From Planctomicrobium sp. (GTDB lineage: Bacteria; Planctomycetota; Planctomycetia; Planctomycetales; Planctomycetaceae), in contig JABJMI010000509.1 of the NCBI GenBank assembly GCA_018659505.1, positions 1 through 14,702 of the forward strand: DNA of 14,702 bases, given 5' to 3'. Below, in pieces: positions 3,888 to 4,779 of this stretch; position 1 is the first letter of the stretch, and each line of letters begins with the position of its first letter. Below the pieces are notes generated by a model that made no database searches, was not told where the DNA came from, and saw nothing but the letters and a program-made list of their open reading frames with translations. A program made the position numbers and the translations under genes.

Positions 3888-3921
3888 TAAAGCTCAGAGT
3901 GATTTGCTCTGGGCTTTTTTT
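3888..3921 (+). terminator. Intrinsic terminator after ilvC
   Basis: AGCTCAGAG (3891-3899) pairs with CTCTGGGCT (3907-3915) with one G-U wobble around a 7-nt loop, and the stem runs into seven T residues (3915-3921). It lies about 30 nt after the ilvC stop codon and is the clearest Rho-independent terminator in the window. A smaller hairpin, AATTCG-TAA-CGAATT (3869-3883), precedes it. Confidence 0.88.
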
Positions 3922-3932
3922 GCAGTGGAAGA

Positions 3933-3956
3933 ACACTATCACACTATCACACTATT
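3933..3956 (+). repeat. Three tandem copies of an 8-mer
   Basis: ACACTATC occurs twice in tandem (3933-3948), followed by a third unit ACACTATT (3949-3956). The array abuts the outer end of the left REP copy at 3957, so it sits exactly at the edge of the transposase/REP unit. Confidence 0.7.
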
Positions 3957-4037
3957 GTCGCGGAGCGACTTTTTCCGATAGCCTTGGGATTTATCCCAAG
4001 GTGAGTTTGCCCCATGTTGATGATGTCGCGGAGCGAC
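3957..4037 (+). repeat. Composite REP element, copy 1 (left flank of RAYT)
   Basis: Three hairpins stand in a row. GTCGC-GGA-GCGAC is at 3957-3969. After a 7-nt spacer and GATAG comes CCTTGGGAT-TT-ATCCCAAGG at 3982-4001. After a 23-nt spacer comes a second, identical GTCGC-GGA-GCGAC at 4025-4037. Total length is 81 nt. The same order and spacing are found in the copies at 4623-4704 and 14597-14680. Confidence 0.85.
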
Positions 4038-4085
4038 TATATGCGACTGAGGATGCCACTCTTTACGTGTAATCAGACCGCTCAT

Positions 4086-4550
4086 TCAACCAATATGCTC
4101 TTCTTCAAATACATATTGTGGATCGAACTCAATTCTGTGTTTCTTTAGAAACAAAATGTATTCATCGCGAAACGATTGCTTCGCATGATGCTCTTCCTGA
4201 TTCTCGATATATTGCTTCACAACCTCTGACATAGATTCACTGACTGAGAACGCTCCATATCCTCGCTGCCAAGAGAACCTCGATGAGGTTTTATGGTTCT
4301 TGTTGATCCAATGCGATGAATTGCCCTTGATGAGTTTAATCGTATCAGCGATGGCATAAGAGGGGTGAGTTTTCAAGAGGAGGTGGACATGGTCTTCAAT
4401 TCCACCGGCTTTTAACAAAGACCCTTTGTGAGTTTGAGCATTCGCACCCATCACGCCGTAGAGATCATCTCGCCATGATTTATCGAGAAGTTTGGTGCGT
4501 TGTTTTGTATTGAAGATAACGTGGATCAAGATTCCAGAATGTGTAGACAT
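4086..4550 (-). CDS. REP-associated tyrosine transposase (IS200-like, HUH/Y1 family)
   Basis: The product is a single-strand DNA endonuclease/transposase of the Y1_Tnp family (PF01797), here 154 residues, the usual compact size. The HUH metal-binding motif is His54-Val-His56 in GGIEDHVHLLLK. The catalytic tyrosine is most likely Tyr114 in YIENQEEHH, four residues before Gln118, which is the Y-x3-Q spacing of IS200 TnpA proteins. WQRGYGAFSVS (93-103) is a typical conserved segment. All catalytic elements are intact and there is no frameshift. The ATG at 4548-4550 begins MSTHSGILIHVIFNTKQR, a standard family start; the upstream Shine-Dalgarno is weak. The gene lies between two inverted copies of a three-hairpin REP element, which marks it as a RAYT (TnpA_REP) rather than a free IS200. 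It probably nicks or moves these REPs (inference from the family). Confidence 0.92.
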   Translation of the reverse strand: MSTHSGILIHVIFNTKQRTKLLDKSWRDDLYGVMGANAQTHKGSLLKAGGIEDHVHLLLKTHPSYAIADTIKLIKGNSSHWINKNHKTSSRFSWQRGYGAFSVSESMSEVVKQYIENQEEHHAKQSFRDEYILFLKKHRIEFDPQYVFEEEHIG

Positions 4551-4622
4551 GAGCGTCGGCTCTTATCAAGAATCAAGAACTTGTATGCGATACATCTCAT
4601 TGTCACCGCCGAATCACAAATC

Positions 4623-4704
4623 GTCGCTCTGCGACGTGAGATGGAGAGAGATGCACTAACCTTGGGATGAATCCCAAGGCTATCGAACGAAGTGCCTCCG
4701 GCAC
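4623..4704 (-). repeat. Composite REP element, copy 2 (right flank of RAYT, inverted)
   Basis: Read on the minus strand: GTGCC-GGA-GGCAC (4704-4692), a 7-nt spacer, then GATAG and CCTTGGGAT-TC-ATCCCAAGG (4679-4660), a 24-nt spacer, and GTCGC-AGA-GCGAC (4635-4623). It is 82 nt long. The first hairpin differs from copy 1 by paired changes that keep the stem, which is evidence that the structure itself is under selection. It lies about 75 bp beyond the 3' end of the large lipoprotein gene. Confidence 0.85.
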
Positions 4705-4779
4705 AATGTAATCGCTTCGCCATCGGTCTTCATGGCTGACACTAATTTTGTTTATCTATGTCGTACTTTTGATTTAATC

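Follow-up and report, generated by a model that had tools for sequence, protein, structure and literature searches.

The window analyzed here, the whole stretch of 14,702 nucleotides of contig JABJMI010000509.1 from Planctomicrobium sp., contains at positions 3957 to 4704 a gene for a HUH/Y1 transposase bracketed by two oppositely oriented units of about 82 nt. The gene, tnpA, was identified by open reading frame, domain and motif searches; it occupies positions 4086 to 4550 on the minus strand (stop codon included) and encodes 154 amino acids, which give 101 bits with the Pfam Y1_Tnp model. From the outside inward, each unit consists of an outer hairpin (hp1), 12 nt that end in GATAG, a middle hairpin (hp2), 23 nt, and an inner hairpin (hp3). 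The spacers of 12 nt (7 nt plus GATAG) and 23 nt are equal in both units; the stems have 5 bp in hp1, at least 8 bp in hp2, and 5 to 6 bp in hp3. In the left unit, on the plus strand, hp1 (GTCGC-GGA-GCGAC, positions 3957 to 3969) is followed by the GATAG foot at 3977 to 3981, which lies directly 5′ of hp2 in a guide-like position and was recognized from the sequence and from foot counts in relatives. There, hp2 (3982 to 4001) was assigned by sequence, fold and covariation and hp3 (4025 to 4037, with a GGA triloop) by sequence and the triple rule described below, and hp1 was assigned by sequence and fold. The inverted right unit, read on the minus strand, begins with hp1 (GTGCC-GGA-GGCAC, with a GGA triloop) at 4692 to 4704 and continues with the foot at 4680 to 4684 (CTATC on the plus strand), hp2 at 4660 to 4679, and hp3 at 4622 to 4636 with an AGA triloop; hp1 and hp3 were assigned by sequence and fold, the foot by sequence, and hp2 by sequence and by an RF01687 match at 4660 to 4705 on the plus strand. 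The outer arms of the module, 3954 to 4006 and 4655 to 4707, are 83% complementary.

Folding of the hp1-first strand as single-stranded DNA (ssDNA) gave z scores of −3.72 for the left unit (as 3957 to 4036, the final hp3 base missing), which 1 of 200 shuffles matched, and −4.82 for the right unit, which none of 200 shuffles matched; hence, the three-hairpin structure is more than chance. The earlier note on this DNA, made from the letters alone, had described an intact Y1 transposase between inverted copies of a three-hairpin element, and both this plan and its coordinates, spacers and loops proved correct on direct reading of the window and in the folds.

The surroundings of the left unit have features of their own. 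A hairpin that resembles a terminator and has a T run (3891 to 3921) lies between the left unit and a gene that we take from its sequence to be ilvC-like, and it probably places the module outside the transcript of that gene. Abutting the left hp1 at 3933 to 3955 is an 8-nt direct repeat, ACACTATC, in nearly three copies; the CTATC within it is complementary to the GATAG foot, a suggestive hint at a guide/target match. The 6 nt outside hp1 showed no conservation across the other loci compared, which were those found by the relaxed rule below.

The earlier note had labeled the transposase a RAYT, a label that has to be given up: the protein scored 27.2 bits on the NCBIfam RAYT model NF047646 (cut-off, 80; Escherichia coli rayT scores 179 bits), it passed the IS200/IS605 model NF033573 with 85.1 bits (cut-off, 55), and it fell on the IS200 side of a quick tree (SH-aLRT, 99). 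RAYT membership is thus ruled out by the NCBIfam score, by the tree, and by the Y motif, which is Y---Q--HH instead of Y--NP. Among 48 aligned proteins, all matched the IS200 model at an E value of ≤0.001, and 25 also matched the RAYT model. The motifs of the window protein are DHVH, WQ and YIENQEEHH, which contain H54, H56, W94, Q95, Y114, Q118, H121 and H122; H54, H56, W94, Q95, Y114, Q118 and H121 are invariant in 47 aligned rows, and this HUH, tyrosine and glutamine set is the one known from IS608. Across 47 proteins including that of the window, DH.H or NH.H and WQ were present in all and Y...Q..HH in 46, and the C-terminal tail is conserved as well (F127 and E130 in at least 90% of the aligned proteins). 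By motif, the transposase is assigned to TnpAY1 subclass 1.2, for which the sections of PMC6006769 on this subclass give DH[IV]H, WQ and Y---Q--HH as common motifs and a length of about 150 amino acids. TnpAY1 class 3, also known from Planctomycetes and Acidobacteria and described there with atypical high-copy hairpins, differs in having NHVH, W[TA], a CnGA foot and another Y motif (PMC6006769), and it is ruled out by HUH motif, Y motif and foot.

An AlphaFold2 model of the protein (pLDDT, 90.3) had its best Foldseek E values with the TnpA proteins of ISDra2 and IS608 (6e-9), and TnpA_REP (4er8) ranked 30th (1.9e-6). The TM-scores were alike (0.60 for 4er8; 0.53 to 0.62 for IS608 and ISDra2), so the fold is no arbiter between IS200 and RAYT; sequence-profile matches in the PDB were to IS200-type proteins only. 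The tree had 49 rows (33 of the 47 rows of the subclass set, 12 other Y1 proteins, rayT and 3 others), and in it the subclass set grouped with IS200-type proteins and was split from E. coli rayT, which is a long branch, and rayT-like proteins. Six IS200-type rows were nested inside the set, and the subclass is therefore not shown as a single clade. Named relatives of the window protein include one from a planctomycete (62% identity), one from an acidobacterium, and others from Bacteroidota and a Cloacimonadota MAG. Per genome, 0 to 5 gene matches were counted among the planctomycete relatives, and one acidobacterium had as many as 12, so the gene is not low in copy number everywhere.

The three-hairpin plan is kept beside this gene in relatives. 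A strict triple rule identified units on 35 of 74 flank sides at 38 loci including the window, with both sides at 13 loci and neither at 16 (two of these 16 having one side too short). The same rule found nothing on the 10 sides of five distant Y1 loci or in dinucleotide shuffles (40 for each of 84 sides). With a relaxed rule, 56 of the 87 sides long enough to test at 44 loci were positive, as against 0 of 1,740 mononucleotide shuffles. Applied unchanged to acidobacterial loci, the relaxed rule identified units on 31 of 60 sides and at 20 of 30 loci, and on neither side at 10 of 30; in this set, L208 repeats L025 (29 of 58 sides and 19 of 29 loci without L208), and L218 and L219 are the same unit. 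Other Y1 genes, given wider flanks, yielded 0 of 59 sides at 30 loci. That set, which takes 30 of 33 matches in 11 genomes mostly picked as RF01687 positive without the gene, includes a 93-aa fragment (L240, of unplaced subclass) and a locus that overlaps strict-rule locus L059. Units found by the relaxed rule occur in Planctomycetota, Acidobacteriota and Bacteroidota; the Cloacimonadota relative (L030) had none by either rule. Among the Y1 genes tested, the three-hairpin units belong to subclass 1.2.

Seventy-two units, from the 44 relaxed-rule loci and 16 of the 30 acidobacterial loci, were compared in detail; those from related loci are not independent. Read from outer to inner, GNA triloops, which are very stable in DNA, occurred in hp1 of 40 units and hp3 of 41, and TNC, the same loop on the opposite strand, occurred in none of either. 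In 43 of 56 units taken as found, the 3 nt before hp2 were TAG, CAG or AAG; when the script was allowed to strip outer pairs until it came to an AG, which favors AG feet, 70 of the 72 units had TAG (59), CAG (7) or AAG (4), and the four-letter foot was ATAG in 31 and GTAG in 15. In 16 units selected for perfect stems, and therefore with each of the 13 pairs intact by construction, 9 pairs showed changes on both sides.

The right unit also matches an Rfam family, RF01687 (Acido-Lenti-1), with 35.7 bits, just below the gathering score of 37; for the left unit, no RF01687 match was listed at an E value of ≤1. The 46 positions of the model correspond to hp2, foot and hp1, that is, to the outer half of the unit, and hp3 lies outside it. 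The model was built on the strand with TCC/TTC-type loops, and the GNA triloops are on the opposite strand; it matches the unit, but it is filed as an sRNA, lacks hp3 and describes the other strand. The gathering score was passed in 22 of 59 planctomycete and 24 of 119 acidobacterial genomes, with the best acidobacterial copies reaching 62.1 bits. At 13 loci (L025, L037, L039, L041 to L044, L046, L047, L056 and L061 to L063), matches lay within 200 nt of the gene as an inverted pair, on the minus strand to the left and the plus strand to the right. At an E value of ≤0.01, 22 of the 36 subclass loci scanned, the window included, had at least one match, and the inverted pairs account for 13 of the 36; the four distant Y1 loci scanned at that limit had none. 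One locus (L064, on G057:C2) has the arrangement reversed (plus left, minus right) with further matches downstream, and another (L050) has a single match in the other orientation. RF01687 was found at 9 of 20 acidobacterial loci scanned and at 0 of 20 loci of other Y1 genes.

At the level of genomes, the hairpins and the gene co-occur, in line with the earlier note. In 59 planctomycete relatives (own genome included), RF01687 (E value, ≤0.001) was present in 23 of 23 gene-bearing genomes and 5 of 36 others at a protein limit of 1e-15, a limit chosen after seeing the table; at a protein limit of 1e-5, the counts were 24 of 25 and 4 of 34. In 119 acidobacteria, they were 21 of 24 (three gene-bearing genomes had no RF01687 match) and 8 of 95. 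Fisher tests gave P values of 6.8e-12 for the planctomycetes and 5.9e-14 for the acidobacteria, both uncorrected for kinship, and 14 control genomes had no RF01687 match. The earlier note had also pointed to hairpins just as abundant in relatives lacking the transposase as a possible objection, and this applies to a minority of genomes: among those without the gene, RF01687 is present in 5 of 36 planctomycete relatives and 8 of 95 acidobacteria, with up to 35 copies. Three RF01687-rich genomes had no subclass gene found: G137 (35 copies), which has one short Y1 fragment, and G111 (24 copies) and G014 (14 copies), in which no Y1 gene was found. Gene loss, incompleteness of the assemblies or mobilization by another enzyme are alternative explanations for these three.

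RF01687 is typed in Rfam as an sRNA. Group II introns have reportedly been remarked upon near Acido-Lenti-1. In the 2010 source of the family, the term “group II intron” is absent from the main text as searched, and its table lists Acido-Lenti-1 as “probably” RNA. A 2026 paper describes Acido-Lenti-1 beside protease genes and suggests a regulatory noncoding RNA; its authors saw no transposase there. In the published main texts searched on Acido-Lenti-1 or RF01687, we found no link to a Y1 transposase. In light of the data above, RF01687 looks like the outer half of a DNA element targeted by the transposase.

Within its own genome, for which the assembly is 75% complete, the left unit had 23 BLASTN matches at an E value of ≤1 (two of them at 0.63), which represent the window and 16 other places; the window protein had a single match. 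The many copies and few transposase genes expected by the earlier note are thus present, and the lack of further copies that it had considered did not occur. As judged by eye, at least 9 of the 16 other places are inverted doublets too close together to hold a gene and formed of two half-unit types, and the remaining places are partial or run off contig ends. Many of these copies have further ends around them. Allowing up to 2 mismatches, we found that 11 of the 16 other copies have an end with the sequence GTAACCGTTCACG no more than 200 nt away, on one side or both. Own-genome copy number is therefore not a clean measure of Y1 activity, and the system may or may not be self-contained, as the earlier note had suggested it to be. 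The GTAACCGTTCACG pattern matched at 56 positions, compared to 8 for the reversed control; no such end was found near the window module or at ten copies checked in G049, a genome of the planctomycete genus discussed below, where outer inverted repeats did not exceed 11 nt.

The GTAACCGTTCACG ends define a separate, unrelated terminal inverted repeat (TIR) element of about 258 to 464 bp in this genome, with at least three interior repeat types, of which the three-hairpin doublet is one. Examples lie at G000:C219:9519-9982, C104:472-845, C473:2072-2329 and C920:7777-8054, and the C219 copy is bounded by a perfect 8-bp duplication, AAATTTCT. Other interiors (on C104, C219, C473 and C498) carry CCACGAAACACACAAATGACACGAAA / GACAGGATTGACATGATTTACAGGAT and GAACAGGAGGAAACAGAGAGAGCAGAG, which resemble intergenic repeats of many phyla. 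The GTAACCGTTCACG ends look IS66-like in their GTAA start and the 8-bp duplication; a PF03050 search of the 75%-complete assembly for an IS66 transposase found nothing.

In related genomes, the gene is under purifying selection, the module turns over at orthologous sites, and the lineages of enzyme and repeat match. Nine genomes of one planctomycete genus share a single intergenic site, which holds the module in G049, G064, G057 and G059, only hairpins in G065, and neither gene nor units in G060 to G063 (one short hairpin being left in G061). At this site, the hairpins of the G059 copy are of another type, and its protein is 62% identical and has a stop. G059 carries a second copy at another place (77%), and the hairpins of that copy are of the G057 type. 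Comparison of the two G059 copies indicates that here the repeat type follows the enzyme lineage, not the site or the genome. Over 30 loci, enzyme and repeat similarity were correlated (r = 0.66; 0 of 2,000 permutations as high, with genome kinship uncorrected). The ratios of dN to dS were 0.05 to 0.09 in five pairs, at dS values of 0.4 to 1.1 in four and 2.5 in the fifth.

The gene-less copies turn over as well. In G049, 8 were queried and 4 sites could be aligned, and at each of these one or more congeners lack the doublet, some of the empty sites perhaps retaining traces of hairpins; one G049 doublet is common to G062, which has no gene match. Doublets spanned 190 to 205 bp in 7 of the 10 G049 copies measured, and one copy was a single unit. 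An extra unit in G057 runs about 27 nt into the end of the gene, as expected of a deletion derivative. Element ends and target sites are unreadable in the alignments of filled and empty sites because the intergenic flanks have diverged.

These features recall several known systems. Like RAYT/TnpA_REP systems as described in PMC6006769, PMC8266576 and PMC3116915, the locus has a gene amid inverted repeats, with a GTAG-type foot (ATAG in the window), dispersed inverted doublets and a pairing of cognates. The inverted doublet is the repeated form, as in REPINs, at the at least 9 of 16 own-genome places and the 7 of 10 G049 copies mentioned above. The foot sits directly at the stem, as does GTAG in REPs; PMC8266576 describes such a position as having a guide role in IS608 and proposes the same for REPs, and the combination of purifying selection with gene-less doublets resembles RAYT/REPIN biology (PMC3116915). 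The differences from RAYTs are the enzyme branch and Y motif, the three hairpins per unit instead of one, and a foot that is mainly ATAG.

With IS200/IS605 elements (IS608 and ISDra2), the locus has the enzyme family, the fold and the HUH, tyrosine and glutamine set in common, but it differs in its inverted three-hairpin ends, gene-less doublets and long-term purifying selection. Ends of the IS608/IS200 type have one subterminal hairpin each, on one strand, and are not inverted copies, and insertion occurs 3′ of a fixed tetra- or pentanucleotide with no duplication; in place of one subterminal hairpin per end, inverted three-hairpin units were found here. For subclass 1.2, the sections of PMC6006769 (Quentin et al., 2018) on this subclass give REPs as absent, generally no IS200-type end structures, and low copy numbers, mostly in Cyanobacteria and Bacteroidetes. 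Many of the genes here are instead flanked by three-hairpin units, and they are present in Planctomycetota and Acidobacteriota; the flank tests thus do not bear out a lack of REPs or end structures. Short single stem-loops with a GTAG foot have been reported in Rhodopirellula baltica and Opitutus terrae (Di Nocera et al., 2013; PMC3733652). By this description, hp2 together with its foot might be taken for a repeat of that kind, and the planctomycete GTAG-tagged single palindromes may overlap hp2.

Taken together, we consider it probable that the locus is a REPtron-like module, in which a subclass 1.2 Y1 gene lies between two inverted copies of the repeat cognate to it, and the data are best read as a REPtron/REPIN-like ssDNA system whose enzyme comes from the IS200 side. 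Among the alternatives, the element could be a structured RNA, an sRNA or regulator near the gene by chance that, for example, controls the transposase mRNA. This would agree with the “probably” RNA entry in the 2010 table, the sRNA type in Rfam and the regulatory suggestion of the 2026 paper, and the structure covaries, although DNA hairpins would do likewise. We consider such an RNA unlikely, given the inverted pairs at 13 of 36 subclass loci, a model that spans two of three hairpins with the GNA triloops on the strand opposite to it, and the fact that RF01687 tracks one transposase subclass in two phyla and was found at none of 20 loci of other Y1 genes. Slightly further down in likelihood, the dispersed copies could be passengers of the GTAACCGTTCACG-ended TIR element, of DDE type, with the Y1 gene unrelated to their spread. 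The ends at 11 of 16 other own-genome copies, the excess over the reversed control, and the two other interior types bounded by the same ends, one copy with a perfect 8-bp duplication, all speak for it. Against it, such ends are missing from the window module and the ten G049 copies, the flanking plan is kept in other phyla, and an IS66 transposase was not found in the 75%-complete assembly.

An IS200/IS605 insertion sequence of the ordinary kind, its ends having decayed or been misread, would account for the NF033573 score, the ISDra2/IS608-like fold and the presence or absence of the module as a block. It is, in our judgment, improbable, and more so than the two readings before it: each end is a three-hairpin unit and the two are inverted copies, the own genome holds more gene-less doublets than genes, and the dN/dS values of 0.05 to 0.09 hold at dS values of at least 0.4. 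Least probable of all is a RAYT/REP system of the canonical type whose REP happens to be unusual, although its mechanism may be alike. In favor of it, the doublets are inverted, the foot is TAG, selection is purifying and enzyme and repeat match, as described for RAYT/REPIN (PMC6006769 and PMC3116915), and the TM-score to 4er8 about equals those to IS608 and ISDra2; against it are the failed NF047646 test, the Y---Q--HH motif where Y--NP would be needed, the IS200-side position in the tree, the rank of 4er8 by Foldseek E value behind IS200-type structures, and PDB profile matches to the IS200 type only.

For the REPtron-like reading, we infer that the transposase binds, cleaves and mobilizes ssDNA. 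The unit would act as a polar three-hairpin ssDNA signal (hp1, NTAG foot plus hp2, and hp3) and would fold once the strand carrying it becomes accessible, most likely during replication. TnpA would then most likely bind the NTAG foot together with hp2, by analogy with TnpA_REP, which binds GTAG and a hairpin, and hp1 and hp3 would help the unit to fold or mark the cleavage region. Tyr114 would cut and rejoin nearby, and doublets would spread in trans. Gene-less inverted doublets would be the main dispersing form, as in REPINs, some of them derived from modules that have lost the gene. In a bolder form, which goes with the third-system reading below, a single unit of about 80 nt may itself be a minimal ssDNA element, because hp1 and hp3 have the same orientation around the guide-bearing hp2; each strand of an inverted doublet would then carry a working end, and the one-strand limit of IS608 would not apply.

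Whether these loci make up a third Y1 ssDNA system besides IS200/IS605 and RAYT/REP, with subclass 1.2 enzymes, polar three-hairpin repeats, inverted doublets, a range of at least three phyla and a substrate filed in Rfam as RNA, is in our view evenly balanced. Its components are all of familiar kinds, and what we did not find in the literature searched are a three-hairpin repeat cognate to subclass 1.2 and the interpretation of RF01687 as DNA. The system would stand between IS200 elements and domesticated RAYTs. If it is real, the subclass reported without REPs in PMC6006769, as far as its sections on the subclass go, gains a specific DNA partner, an Rfam “RNA” of unassigned function is likely an ssDNA element, and Acido-Lenti-1 copies beside protease genes, as presented in the 2026 paper, are possible traces of a mobile element. 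Elsewhere in the window, the region at 626 to 711 matches several miRNA families below threshold, on either strand, and is probably a strong hairpin.
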